Origin: an uncultured Selenomonadales bacterium
GTDB taxonomy: Bacteria > Bacillota > Negativicutes > Selenomonadales > Selenomonadaceae
Direction of reading: 5' to 3'
Length of the DNA stretch: 64,000 nucleotides
Assembly: GCA_900314765.1 (NCBI GenBank)
Contig: OMWN01000099.1
Coordinates: 1-64,000 of the forward strand
Of this stretch, positions 1-63,379 are shown one piece after another (the stretch's first letter is position 1; each line of letters opens with the position of its first letter). The notes under the pieces are model-generated. The model made no database searches, had not been told where the DNA came from, and saw only the letters and a list, made by a program, of their open reading frames with translations. The translations under genes and the position numbers were made by a program.

Positions 1-216
1 CCTCTCCGCCCCCTGTGGGGGCACCTCCCCCAGAGTGGGAGGCATAGGATGAGAGGCTTTGTAGTCTGAAGTTAAACGAAAGAATAAAGCATTCTACACT
101 CTCGTTAGACGATTATTTAGCTAGCAAATCGATTCAGCTAATGTAAATAATCCCGGCATCTGTAACGCCAGCCTCCCCAATGGGGGAGGTGCCGAGCGAA
201 TGCGAGGCGGAGAGGG
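1..216. repeat. MITE-like element with ~44-bp terminal inverted repeats
   Basis: The first 44 bases (CCTCTCCGCC, then GCACCTCCCCCA and GGGAGGC) recur inverted at 171-215, where GCCTCCCC is followed by GGGGGAGGTGCC and GGCGGAGAGG. Each arm is itself a small palindrome (CCTCCC/GGGAGG). The ~125-bp interior is AT-richer and has no credible ORF. GC-rich terminal inverted repeats around a non-coding core fit a non-autonomous MITE-like repeat. The left end lies at the window edge, so a target-site duplication cannot be checked. Positions 217-278 hold nothing I recognise. Confidence 0.6.
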
Positions 217-278
217 TTGCACCCCACCATTGCACTAGTCAACAAAATGGACACAAATTTTACAAACTCATAGGCATG

Positions 279-19676: not shown

Positions 19677-19836
19677 AGGAAACGCTGATTATTTCAGCAG
19701 TCGTCTTGACAGGTCTTTTTCCGCATATCTTCGTCGATGCTCATCAGCGTAGGCACCACTACGCTTCTTCGCATCTCCTTGCTATGCGAAAAAATCTCTC
19801 GTCAATACTTCTGCTTTCATTAATCAGCGTTTCCTT
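19677..19836. repeat. Long copy of the AGGAAAC palindromic repeat family
   Basis: Begins AGGAAACGCTGATTA and ends TAATCAGCGTTTCCT. The two halves are imperfect inverted repeats over nearly the full 160 bp (matching TTGAC, TTTTTCCGCATA and CGTAG segments) with a small central loop at CACCA. Two shorter copies with the same ends lie at 43296-43340 and 63033-63071. No coding potential. It looks like a non-autonomous palindromic element. Confidence 0.7.
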
Positions 19837-21921: not shown

Positions 21922-22317
21922 TTATCTTTGATTTTGTTTGACAACCATCACTGGCAGCCTCGACTCCTCTATAACTTTTTGACTCACGCTGCCGATGAGC
22001 GCACCGCGGAATATTCCGAGTCCGCGGCTTCCCATGATGATGATGTTATCGCCCAGCTCCTCCGCCACCTCGACAACTTTCCGCGCGATGTTTCCTGACG
22101 CGGTGTGGAGCTCATACTTTATGTCGTTCGGCACCTTCTTTACCATCTCATCAAAAACGATGTCGCTCGGTATATCCTTATGGACATCGCTGGCAACGTA
22201 CAGAAAATCAATCACAGCATCACACGCCTTGGCGAAATACGCGGCTTGCTCCGTGGCCTTCGTGCTGCTGACTGACCCATCGACAGGGACGAGAATTCTT
22301 TTTATCGTAGAAGACAT
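21922..22317 (-). CDS. Universal stress protein UspA family
   Basis: A 131-residue single-domain USP. RILVPVDGS at the N terminus and GSRGLGIFRGALIGSVS near the C terminus give the ATP-binding G-x2-G-x9-G-S pattern, so it is probably of the ATP-binding type. The ATG at 22317 has AAGGAGG 8 bases upstream; in-frame upstream ATGs lack a site. It precedes leuA by 18 bp and is likely cotranscribed with it. Confidence 0.9.
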   Translation of the reverse strand: MSSTIKRILVPVDGSVSSTKATEQAAYFAKACDAVIDFLYVASDVHKDIPSDIVFDEMVKKVPNDIKYELHTASGNIARKVVEVAEELGDNIIIMGSRGLGIFRGALIGSVSQKVIEESRLPVMVVKQNQR

Positions 22318-22443
22318 AAATATTCCTCCTTGTTGTCCACATTCGGTACACATTGCATACATTCACACGCAACAGATACATAATATCATAATCGCACGAT
22401 AAAATATATAGAAAATCCCCTTTAATGTAAAATATTTTCGCAT

Positions 22444-22483
22444 AAAAAAATGAGCACCGCGTTCATGCGATGCTCATTTTTTT
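22444..22483 (-). terminator. Intrinsic terminator downstream of alaS
   Basis: AAAAAAATGAGCA and TGCTCATTTTTTT form a strong hairpin with A/T runs on both sides. It lies past the 160-bp palindromic element that follows alaS, so the element would be transcribed as part of the alaS 3' untranslated region. Confidence 0.82.
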
Positions 22484-22513
22484 ATGCTATGAGGTTGTGA
22501 AATTAGATAAAAA

Positions 22514-22673
22514 TGACTCGGTGATGCCAGTCCTCATCCACTGCGCAATTTCGACAGGCTCTAATGCTGGCTTCCTCGCGGCAAAAGCGAAAACATGCCG
22601 CTTCGGAGCCAGCCAAAGAGCCTCTAGGAAATTGCTAAGTTACTTCGGACTGGCATCGCCTCGGGATTAGTCA
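22514..22673. repeat. 160-bp palindromic hairpin element between usp and alaS
   Basis: The ends are TGACT and AGTCA. Inside, GATGCCAGTCC pairs with GGACTGGCATC, GCAATTTC with GAAATTGC, AGGCTCT with AGAGCCT, and GCTGGCTTCC with a GAGCCAGC segment, so the whole length folds into one imperfect hairpin. It has no credible ORF. Its sequence is unlike the AGGAAAC family and the element at 1-216. It could be a MITE or a structured RNA in the alaS 3' region. Confidence 0.65.
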
Positions 22674-22687
22674 CAATATCATCTATT

Positions 22688-25312
22688 TTATTTTGCGAGT
22701 TCGCTGATCATGCTAATGCCTTTTTCAAATGCTTCTGGAATCCTTTCCTCGAGCTTGCCGCCGGCAGTCGCCATGTCTGGTCGTCCGCCGCCGCCACCGC
22801 CGACAATCTTAGCCATTTCCTTGACAATCTTGCCCGCATGAACGCCGAGCTTGACGGCCTCTTTCGAAGCCTTCACGACGAACATGACCTTGCCGTCAAT
22901 CACAGCGGAAAGAATCGCAACGCCATTCTCCAAGCGGTCGACAATCATGTCGGCCATGTTTCTGAGCTCATCGACACTCTCAACGTTTGCACGGCCACTC
23001 ACAACACTGATTTCGCCATATTTCTTTACGGCCATCAACAGTTTCTGCGCGTCTGCCTTTTCCTTCATTTTATTAATTTCGTCGATACGCTTCTCCATAT
23101 CGCCGTACTTCGCAATCATGTCGCTGAGATGTGACTCGATGTCTGCAGGCTGGCACTTGAGCGCGGTCGAAACGGCCTTCACGTGCTCCTCCTGCTCTTT
23201 CGCGTACGCGAGAGCCGCGCCGCCCGTTATTGCCTCGATGCGGCGCACACCTGCCGCGACGCCCGTCTCGCTGACAATCTTGAACATGCCAATCTGGCCG
23301 ACGTTCTTGACATGCGATCCGCCGCAAAGCTCCATGCTGAAATCTGGCACCGTCACGACGCGGACGATGTCGCCATATTTCTCGCCAAAGAGCGCCATCG
23401 CACCCATCGCGCGCGCCTCGGACTGTTTCATCTGCTTTATGTCTACGTCTTGCCCCTTGAGGATAATCTTGTTGACAAGCTCCTCGACGTCCGCGAGCTG
23501 CTGCGCTGTGACCGGCTCAAAGTTCGAGAAGTCGAAACGCAGGCGCTCCGGCGTGACGAGCGAGCCCGCCTGATTGACTTGATTGCCGACGACGCGCTTC
23601 AATGCAGCCTGAAGAAGATGCGTTGCCGTGTGGTTCCTCGCCGACGCGAGTTTCTTCTCTTGGTCAATCTCGATGCTGACCTTCTCGCCGACCTTTATGC
23701 CACCCTCAGCGACGTACGAGATATGATAAACCGTTCCATCTGGGAGCTTCTTCGCATTTGAGACCTCGATGCGGCCAAACTCGCTCTTGAGGACGCCGAC
23801 GTCTCCGACCTGTCCGCCGCCCTCGGCATAGAACGGCGTCACATCGAGGATGATGCCCGCCTCGTCGCCGTCCTTCAGCTCGTCGACGAGCTTGCCGTCC
23901 TTCCAAATGGCGACGACCTTTGCTTCCGTCGCACTCTCGTCGCGCTTGAGCTCGCCGATATTCGTATCGCGGAGATTTGGCACGTTGACGCGCTGATTAG
24001 CCTGACGCGCCGCCCTTGCGCGCTCGCGCTGAGCCTTCATCGCCTTGTCAAAGCCGTCCTTGTCGATATCAAGCCCCTGCTCGTGAAGAATTTCCTCCGT
24101 AAGCTCCCACGGGAATCCAAACGTATCATAGAGCTTGAATACTTCTTCGCCAGCGAGCTCTTTCTTGCCTGCCTTCTTGAGCTCGTCAATCTGCTGATTC
24201 AAAAGTTCCATGCCCTGCGAAAGCGTCGTATGGAAGCGATCTTCCTCGAGCTGAATGACCTTCTTTATGTAGTCCTGCTTCTGCACGAGCGCCGCGAAAT
24301 CCGGCACATCTTGATAAATCTTCACGACAGCGTCCACAGCACCCGTGAGGAAGCTGTCCTTTATGCCAAGCAGTCTGCCATGACGAACGGCACGGCGCAG
24401 GATGCGACGAAGAACATAGCCACGGCCTTCATTTGAAGGAAGAATGCCATCCATGATCATGATGGCCATGCTGCGCGCATGGTCAGCGATGACCTTCAGC
24501 GAAATATCGTTGTTTTTGTCCTCGCCATATTTCACGCCCGCTTTTTCTGCCGCATATTCAATGATAGGGAAAAGCAGGTCTGTCTCGAAATTCGACGGCT
24601 TCTCCTGAACGACAGAAGCGAGACGCTCGAGGCCGCAGCCCGTATCGATGTTTTTATGAGCGAGCTGATTATATTTGCCATCCTCTGTGCGATCGAACTG
24701 CGTGAAGACGAGGTTCCAAATCTCCAAGTACCTGTCGCAGTCACATCCGACGCCGCACGTCGGCTTGCCGCAGCCGCGCTCCTCGCCGAGGTCTATGTAT
24801 ATCTCAGAGTCTGGGCCGCATGGTCCCGGTCCTATTTCCCAGAAATTGTCATCGAGGCGCACGATATGATCTGGATTGAAGCCCGGCTGTTTCTTCCAAA
24901 TCTCGGCCGCCTCATCATCTTTTGGATAAATCGTCACCCAAAGCTTTTCTTTTGGCAGCTCGACGACTTCTGTCAAAAATTCCCACGCCCAAGGAATAGC
25001 CTCTGCCTTGAAATAATCGCCGAACGAAAAATTGCCGAGCATTTCAAAATACGTCTGATGACGCGCCGTGCGGCCAACATTCTCAATATCGCCCGTGCGG
25101 ACGCAGCGCTGACTCGTCGTGATGCGCGTGCGAGGCGGCTTCATCTTGCCCGTGAAGAACGGCTTCAATGGCGCCATGCCTGCGCCTATGAGCAGAAGTG
25201 ATGGATCATTTTCCGGTATGAGCGAAAAGCTGGGGAGCCTCAAGTGCCCCTTTTTCTCCTCAAAAAATTTGAGATAAGCTTCTCTGAGCTCATTTCCTGT
25301 CATATATTTCAA
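22688..25312 (-). CDS. alaS: Alanine--tRNA ligase
   Basis: An 874-residue AlaRS. Class II core at the N terminus (LREAYLKFFEEKKGHLRLPS, TTSQRCVRTGDIENVGRTARHQTYFEMLGNFSF), then an editing domain with the zinc motifs HTATHLLQAAL and ELCGGSHV, and a C-terminal C-Ala domain with a Gly/Asp-rich GGGGGGRPDMA segment. The start is placed at TTG 25312: GGAGGG lies 7 bases upstream, and MKYMTGNELR then aligns with the usual AlaRS N terminus. The ATG at 25327 overlaps that ribosome site. Confidence 0.96.
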   Translation of the reverse strand: MKYMTGNELREAYLKFFEEKKGHLRLPSFSLIPENDPSLLLIGAGMAPLKPFFTGKMKPPRTRITTSQRCVRTGDIENVGRTARHQTYFEMLGNFSFGDYFKAEAIPWAWEFLTEVVELPKEKLWVTIYPKDDEAAEIWKKQPGFNPDHIVRLDDNFWEIGPGPCGPDSEIYIDLGEERGCGKPTCGVGCDCDRYLEIWNLVFTQFDRTEDGKYNQLAHKNIDTGCGLERLASVVQEKPSNFETDLLFPIIEYAAEKAGVKYGEDKNNDISLKVIADHARSMAIMIMDGILPSNEGRGYVLRRILRRAVRHGRLLGIKDSFLTGAVDAVVKIYQDVPDFAALVQKQDYIKKVIQLEEDRFHTTLSQGMELLNQQIDELKKAGKKELAGEEVFKLYDTFGFPWELTEEILHEQGLDIDKDGFDKAMKAQRERARAARQANQRVNVPNLRDTNIGELKRDESATEAKVVAIWKDGKLVDELKDGDEAGIILDVTPFYAEGGGQVGDVGVLKSEFGRIEVSNAKKLPDGTVYHISYVAEGGIKVGEKVSIEIDQEKKLASARNHTATHLLQAALKRVVGNQVNQAGSLVTPERLRFDFSNFEPVTAQQLADVEELVNKIILKGQDVDIKQMKQSEARAMGAMALFGEKYGDIVRVVTVPDFSMELCGGSHVKNVGQIGMFKIVSETGVAAGVRRIEAITGGAALAYAKEQEEHVKAVSTALKCQPADIESHLSDMIAKYGDMEKRIDEINKMKEKADAQKLLMAVKKYGEISVVSGRANVESVDELRNMADMIVDRLENGVAILSAVIDGKVMFVVKASKEAVKLGVHAGKIVKEMAKIVGGGGGGRPDMATAGGKLEERIPEAFEKGISMISELAK

Positions 25313-25366
25313 TATTTTTCCCTCCAAAAATATGATTTACGAAATTATGCACAAATTAACTTTTTA

Positions 25367-43344: not shown

Positions 43345-43387
43345 AAAATAAAATGAGCTTCCCCATGCCAAGGCATAAGAAAGCTCA
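43345..43387 (-). terminator. Attenuator terminator of the pyr operon
   Basis: On the minus strand, TGAGCTT and AAGCTCA with inner ATGCC/GGCAT pairs make a hairpin (43354-43387) followed by TTTTATTTT. It lies between the PyrR loop and pyrB, as in PyrR-controlled leaders. CCAGC (43420-43424 complement) can pair with GCTGG (43388-43392 complement) as part of an antiterminator next to the terminator base. Confidence 0.75.
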
Positions 43388-43435
43388 CCAGCTTCACATA
43401 ATTAATAAGCCGAAAAACGGCTGGCAACCTTTATC

Positions 43436-43449
43436 AGCCTCACAGGACT
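43436..43449 (-). promoter_or_regulatory. PyrR-binding loop in the pyr leader RNA
   Basis: The minus strand reads AGTCCTGTGAGGCT, which fits the known PyrR recognition sequence ARUCCNGNGAGGYU at all 14 positions. It is about 35 bases after the predicted transcript start and upstream of an antiterminator/terminator pair. UMP-bound PyrR should hold this loop and favour termination. The pyrR gene itself is not in the window. Confidence 0.82.
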
Positions 43450-43486
43450 AATTTCAAAGGTACAAACGCTATTAATTGTTTTATTG

Positions 43487-63032: not shown

Positions 63033-63071
63033 AAGGAAACACGGATTAATTCAATTAATCAGCATTTCCTT
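63033..63071. repeat. Short copy of the AGGAAAC palindromic repeat in the B12 leader
   Basis: AAGGAAACACGGATTAAT pairs with ATTAATCAGCATTTCCTT around a tiny centre. It has the same ends as the copies at 19677-19836 and 43296-43340. It lies between the cobalamin aptamer and the terminator. Confidence 0.7.
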
Positions 63072-63164
63072 CACATTGACAGGCGCCCGCACATGATAAA
63101 TCATGCGCGGGATGACCTGCCAAAACCCATCTTCCCATAACGCCGTAGGTTAAACGATGAATTC

Positions 63165-63335
63165 TATCGTGAGCAGGTCTTCTGACTTAGGCCTAAAATG
63201 ACTGAGACCTCACCTTCCCAGGAATAATGCCCAGTGGTAAACGAAATCTCCGTCGCCAACACAGCTGCGGAACAGTCCGGGACTCGCACCCGATGTTTCC
63301 CTTATCAGCGAAAACGCCGATATAGCTCGCGATGA
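63165..63335 (-). ncRNA. Cobalamin riboswitch
   Basis: On the minus strand the 3' end carries the B12 box AGTCAGAAGACCTGC. Upstream lie ACTGGGCATTATTCC and TGGGAAGGTGAGG, and at the 5' side AAGGGAAACATCGGGTGCGAGTCCCGGAC then TTCCGCAGCTGT, all in the order of the cobalamin aptamer. Stem P1 forms between GCTCGCGAT (63325-63333) and ATCGTGAGC (63166-63174) with one mismatch. Downstream, GCAGGTC (63114-63120 complement) can pair with GACCTGC of the B12 box, followed by a GC-rich hairpin at 63086-63111 and the terminator at 62966-63016. Orientation and distance assign it to the ABC operon, not to the MATE gene, which ends before it. Confidence 0.93.
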
Positions 63336-63379
63336 CAATATGAAAAACTTATGTACAAATCTGAATTAACGCTGGAATG

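Follow-up and report, generated by a model that had tools for sequence, protein, structure and literature searches.

The gene for alanyl-tRNA synthetase (alaS) lies on the minus strand of the window (the whole stretch of 64,000 nucleotides of DNA analysed here), and a long palindrome stands between its 3′ end and a gene for a universal stress protein (Table 1). The host AlaS is of the Selenomonadaceae type; its nearest named matches reach 76% identity, and many of them are rumen or gut assemblies. When the sequence was re-read and refolded, the palindrome at 22514-22673 reported in the preliminary description proved to be real, with exact coordinates and arms. It begins with TGACT at 22514-22518 and ends with AGTCA at 22669-22673. 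While the palindrome itself stood, its extent as a genetic element had to be widened: judged by its ends, the whole element is 194 bp in length and runs from about 22489 to 22682. In a fold of 22488-22683, both outer ends pair at the base, giving one end-to-end hairpin. This element belongs to a repeat family that is called family A here.

The right end of the element is 5 nt away from the alaS stop codon (22688-22690, minus strand), and its left end is 1 nt away from a hairpin with T-runs on both strands. A pattern-based terminator scan listed no terminator, though folding gives this T-run hairpin. The palindrome had been placed in the 3′ region of alaS, where it would be transcribed with the gene, and this position holds, with the T-run hairpin lying beyond. 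Since this likely terminator is on the far side, it is plausible from the arrangement of the sequence that alaS transcripts read through the element before they end. The palindrome itself was rejected as an intrinsic terminator, because its core is not followed by a T-run and the terminator hairpin is a different one, farther on. Relative to alaS, the window copy is in antisense orientation, the less common one for family A, and no ORF of 80 or more amino acids crosses it. Membership in a known Rfam family was also rejected: in the window, only a cobalamin riboswitch (63155-63345, minus strand) and a PyrR binding site (43348-43463, minus strand) reached the gathering score, and the matches at the element were at chance level.

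Table 1. Positions of the family-A element, its neighbours and related elements (window coordinates unless a locus is named)
Feature	Coordinates (strand)	Basis
Universal stress protein gene, far side of the element	21922..22362 (-)	ORF, family search
Hairpin with T-runs on both strands, likely alaS terminator	22440..22487 (.)	Fold, -27.2 / -31.3 kcal/mol
Whole family-A element, ATGAGGTTGTGAA to GTCACAATATCAT	22489..22682 (+), 194 bp	Aligned copies (row L067) and fold
Left outer end TATGAGGTTGTGAA (consensus TATGAGTTTGTGAA)	22488..22501 (+)	1 mismatch
Right outer end GTCACAATATCAT (consensus TTCACAAACTCAT)	22670..22682 (-)	Aligned copies, sequence
Structured core, 148 nt, conserved	22516..22663 (+)	Covariance-model match 1-148
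Basal helix, 5′ arm, GATGCCAGTCC	22523-22533 (+)	Sequence and aligned copies
Basal helix, 3′ arm, GGACTGGCATC	22647-22657 (+)	Sequence and aligned copies
alaS (alanyl-tRNA synthetase)	22688..25327 (-)	ORF; Pfam tRNA-synt_2c
Family-C end, same 14 bp TATGAGTTTGTAAA, closing the window-start element	259..272 (-)	End search
Family B (AGGAAAC), 160-bp copy	19677..19836 (-)	Sequence comparison
Both haem-operon copies of family A; the regular one lies between hemD (Pfam HEM4) and hemB (Pfam ALAD)	Locus L150, 768-918 and 1995-2142	

Copies in the genome and their position relative to genes

Is the palindrome confined to the alaS locus? The genome (2.33 Mb in 103 contigs, 98% complete) was searched for a 22-mer of the core with up to three mismatches. 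There were 62 matches and none for the reversed control, which rules out a single-copy chance palindrome. BLAST, which had been proposed as the way to look for further copies, returned 80 candidates, 40 of which were scored as full copies; apart from reverse-strand echoes, the full copies other than the window copy are 90-96% identical to it. A covariance model built from 52 intact copies found them again, together with a divergent copy on contig C67 and two miniatures (contigs C84 and C73). Beyond the 62 pattern copies, the genome thus holds one very divergent copy and several partial ones. The miniatures keep the basal stem only, their interior being deleted (L151 990-1043 and L152 about 905-957). 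Several contigs end inside or right beside copies, namely C4 and C8 (loci L261 and L293), C34, and C78; since contigs break at copies, the true number is probably higher than 62. A truncated copy (L121) was considered as joined to an insertion sequence, but this was dropped, as the ORF next to it looks, on inspection of its sequence, like a ribonucleotide reductase.

Outside this genome, family A was not found in any collection searched. BLAST against 40 relatives gave no copy, and neither did a second covariance model, which included the divergent copy, in 39 relatives. Among 379 other class genomes, the first covariance model found none, eight candidates being scored per genome under strict filters. 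The alaS 3′ region was extracted from 16 relatives; nine of these regions, along with L175 and L201 from two further relatives, gave no match to the covariance model. An exact 20-base pattern had no match in genome_contigs, a scan that may leave out the own genome of the element. A phage or plasmid origin was rejected, because phages and plasmids gave no match to family A and viral contigs gave none to one exact pattern. In the literature on MITEs or palindromic repeats of Selenomonas, Negativicutes, and Selenomonadaceae, nothing on family A was found among the matches listed. In summary, family A is a species-specific, dispersed, palindromic, intergenic repeat whose copies have unrelated flanks.

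The copies are not spread evenly with respect to genes, as judged by gene calls used just as a simple codon model built on the window gave them. Among the gene ends that face a copy, 35 of 63 3′ ends but 12 of 54 5′ ends lie within 30 nt of it (Mann-Whitney p 0.0002 on the distances). The 3′ ends that face a sense copy are within 30 nt of it in 29 of 42 cases (22 of them within 10 nt), against 6 of 21 for antisense copies. Between co-directional neighbours, sense copies outnumber antisense copies by 27 to 10 (p 0.008). The copy is nearer to the upstream stop codon in 29 of these 37 gaps (p 0.0008).

Fold of the core and its conservation among copies

The 160 nucleotides of the window palindrome fold with -80.5 kcal/mol (z -8.9), a value equalled by none of 200 shuffles, and the reverse strand folds with -82.1 kcal/mol (z -8.0). 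Across the family, the core forms a single long hairpin whose internal loops are fixed; the core measures exactly 148 nt in 48 of the 52 intact copies. These 52 copies form the main alignment (A1). The ten of the 62 copies that were left out either carry a family-B insertion (L061, L070, L071, L073, L081, L106, L114, and L119) or are truncated (L111 and L121). A second alignment (A2) joins 15 of the 52 intact copies with the divergent copy. In the 52 intact copies, 96.7% of the stem cells are paired, and 16 of 40 stem pairs have changed on both sides (44 cells); shuffles gave 4.1 such pairs and 10.8 such cells. Control structures slid out of register have at most four pairs and seven cells changed on both sides. 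At its base, helix 2 can pair in two alternative registers. The covariance analysis advocated in the preliminary description, which was meant to distinguish a mobile repeat from a conserved RNA, revealed compensatory changes. In place of the contrary outcome named there, a single copy devoid of such changes, there are 62 copies, with compensatory changes among the 52 intact ones. The two possibilities are not mutually exclusive; family A behaves as a dispersed repeat with a conserved core structure.

A more distant comparison is offered by a haem operon (L150), in which the gene order is hemD-[copy]-hemB-[very divergent copy]-hemL; the name of the last gene, a member of Aminotran_3, was assigned by eye and is presumed here. 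In the divergent copy, 15 of 46 pairs are changed on both sides, two on one side only, and six are broken, while 23 are unchanged. It is identical to the consensus at 41 of 49 internal unpaired positions and at 54 of 92 paired ones; when all unpaired positions are taken, 43 of 56 are identical (Fisher p 0.03). Since unpaired positions are kept more than paired ones, it appears that the stems drift and the loops stay.

Which molecule is constrained? The G-U test was done without pairs 30/119 and 57/93, in which G-U is already the most frequent state. With these two pairs left out, there are 18 G-U cells on the forward strand as against 41 A-C cells, while the opposite would be expected from selection on the RNA. 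Thus, selection on a forward-strand RNA is unsupported, and on this account the constraint may act on DNA or on the reverse transcript.

The core is far more uniform than the ends. The mean pairwise difference without gaps is 0.10 for the core, about 0.55-0.58 for the ends, and 0.74 for the unrelated flanks; the average difference from the consensus is 31% for the ends (gaps allowed) and 6.3% for the core. In the 12 copies whose ends have decayed, the core diverges by 6.2%, and in ten with good ends it does so by 6.1%. The rank correlation between core and end divergence is -0.03 (rho) over 50 of the 52 copies, L109 and L112 being omitted as they stop at contig ends. Because the divergence of the core is independent of the decay of the ends, a recent burst fails as an explanation. 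Constraint on the core after insertion does explain its uniformity, and gene conversion among the copies might do so as well.

Shared outer ends, other palindromic families, and mobility

The inverted ends of family A, ATGAGTTTGTGAA and TTCACAAACTCAT, are 13-14 bp in length and pair with each other in the fold. With up to two mismatches, TATGAGTTTGTGAA has 90 matches in the genome, as against 12 for the reversed control. Of these, 23 adjoin a family-A core. Among the other 67, two lie within 80 nt of partial family-A copies, which makes 25 for family A, and 31 face inward onto another palindromic module within 80 nt: family C in 19 cases, family D in ten, both C and D in one, and family E in one. 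A module is on the outer side of the end in two of the 67. The 34 matches that have no module inside 80 nt include two that lead to family E at about 100 nt, and many of the module-less ones read as coding DNA and may be due to chance. The 14-bp ends are thus common to family A and at least three other palindromic families (C, D, and E), which suggests a single mobility system behind several palindromic families of this genome.

The family-C palindrome, CCTCTCCGCCCC ... GGCGGAGAGGG, occupies window positions 1-272, takes in the element described earlier at 1-216, and is closed by the same 14-bp end as family A. An exact pattern in which one end was joined through a gap to the start of family C had no match even in the own genome and so carries no weight. 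Family D, GTCACCCCACCACC ... GGTGGTGGGGTGAC, is about 300 bp in length with the same outer ends (L272 1501-1800 and L239 1501-1801), and family E is about 252 bp, also with the same outer ends (L280 216-467 and L290). Family B occurs in the window also as two short versions that scarcely extend beyond its two ends (from 43340 downward on the minus strand, and at 63033-63071). It is inserted in eight of the 62 family-A copies: five share one site, two are reversed and occupy the mirrored position in the opposite arm, and one is at a different place. The window had been said to hold three different palindromic families. Their cores are indeed distinct; their separateness did not survive, since A and C have a common 14-bp end and B inserts into A.

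Signs of transposition were assessed in 19 copies with recognisable ends, one of which (L119) has a nested insertion. The element is 194-196 bp in length in 17 of them. A target-site duplication of 4 or 5 nt was found in none of the 19, and at any other length or offset tried in at most two, as in shuffles. In the genome, which is in 103 contigs, transposase genes were searched for through three Pfam families. Y1 transposase (PF01797) gave no match in the 98%-complete genome, while positive controls were found, and there was no IS630-type DDE_3 (PF13358). Two DDE_Tnp_1 (PF01609) genes are present, without family-A ends within the fetched loci. In the account of PMC2229807, a MITE is a non-coding repeat of under about 200 bp in many copies. 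Family A agrees with that account in size, copy number, and terminal inverted repeats; the target duplication that the account also includes was not found.

Possible role of family A and comparison with known repeats

Taken together, it is probable that family A is a MITE-like dispersed palindromic repeat with a structurally conserved core, transcribed as a hairpin at the 3′ end of mRNAs or between cistrons. Such an element would have spread non-autonomously, mobilised in trans by an enzyme specific for the ends that the families have in common. Once inserted, it would be transcribed with the upstream gene, here alaS, as a 3′-untranslated or intercistronic hairpin, the real terminator lying beyond. 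The hairpin may have been retained for its usefulness, most likely because it protects the upstream mRNA at its 3′ end or offers a cleavage site for a double-strand-specific RNase. Against this reading stand the lack of a target duplication in 19 copies, the lack of a transposase with these ends among the three families searched, the G-U result on the forward strand, and the antisense orientation of the window copy. A bolder version, which I regard as unlikely, is that one mobile chassis (the 14-bp inverted ends) has taken up at least four palindromic modules unrelated to one another (A, C, D, and E) and brings them to gene 3′ sides, module A, at least, then being selected for its fold and loops. 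The families would then make up a portable 3′-end hairpin kit rather than ordinary junk MITEs.

Could family A instead be a neutral, selfish repeat? Its core would be uniform through recent spread or gene conversion, and its copies would lie near stop codons because insertions elsewhere are harmful. The mobile-looking ends common to other families and the nesting of family B in eight of the 62 copies fit this view, and purifying selection on promoters and coding sequences would also be expected to give a 3′ bias. I consider it somewhat unlikely all the same. A recent burst should leave ends and core equally fresh, yet they differ by 31% and 6% from the consensus, and in an uncorrelated way. 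Compensatory changes and a divergent copy that keeps its loops are not readily made by gene conversion alone, and the bias of 27 to 10 in co-directional gaps is unexpected under avoidance alone.

Rather unlikely, too, is a constraint at the level of DNA, in which a cruciform or single-stranded hairpin is bound by the mobility enzyme or by a nucleoid or recombination protein, and correction from arm to arm helps the pairing. The nearly equal folding of both strands, the shortage of G-U relative to A-C cells on the forward strand (18 against 41), and the sequence conservation of the internal loops, which resembles that of binding sites, are in its favour, but the genome has no Y1 single-strand transposase, and the proximity to stop codons and the orientation bias suggest a role in the transcript. 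That family A is a multiplied cis-regulatory or small structured RNA, riboswitch-like or an sRNA gene, is improbable. Covariation, conserved loops, and a very strong fold would suit an RNA of its own. On the other hand, nothing in Rfam matches at the gathering level and sub-threshold matches are at chance level, the copies come after genes rather than before them, and no member of the family was found in the 379 other class genomes or in the exact 20-base genome_contigs scan. Finally, a REP/BIME repeat mobilised by a RAYT transposase, which would likewise be palindromic, extragenic, high-copy, and near gene 3′ ends, is very hard to reconcile with a 148-nt core in place of 20-40 bp, the absence of a Y1 (RAYT) gene from a 98%-complete genome, and the lack of a GTAG/CGTC tag at the hairpin foot, and it was rejected.

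The reading of family A as a structurally conserved, MITE-like repeat bears on a wider question. The evidence on which short palindromic repeats of bacteria are usually labelled as junk or as mRNA stabilisers is thin. The present genome combines 52 intact copies with compensatory changes, a divergent copy that keeps its loops, decayed ends as a yardstick, and a clear bias in position and orientation; with these features together, the functional maintenance of such repeats becomes directly testable.

How does family A compare with known repeats? By their published descriptions, several systems resemble it. REP/BIME elements are also extragenic palindromes, often just downstream of genes (PMC3733652), but with their 20-40 bp and GTAG or CGTC tag they are unlike family A in length, tags, and transposase. 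The pneumococcal RUP (107 bp) shares the high copy number and short inverted ends. It is believed to be moved in trans by the transposase of an IS630-type partner (PMC2229807), whereas no IS630-type DDE_3 gene was found in the family-A genome. NEMIS, or Correia, elements of Neisseria (about 107 and 155 bp) are likewise short non-coding repeats with inverted ends and a stem-loop fold; RNase III processing of their stem-loop transcript has been proposed, and they have target duplications and TA termini according to the same source (PMC2229807), while family A shows no duplication. YPAL, or RU-2, of Yersinia is palindromic, intergenic, and about 168 bp in length, forms one long stem-loop, and is said to be co-expressed with the upstream gene, perhaps affecting its stability (PMC2229807 and PMC2267715). 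Compared by description, YPAL is like family A in being an intergenic palindrome with a long stem-loop whose consensus structure is kept across copies; it differs in its target duplications of 3-26 bp and its internal inverted repeats (PMC2229807), where family A has terminal inverted repeats and no duplication in 19 copies. Family A is therefore a new family of a kind already known, and by the published descriptions its place is nearest to repeats of the YPAL, NEMIS, and RUP type.
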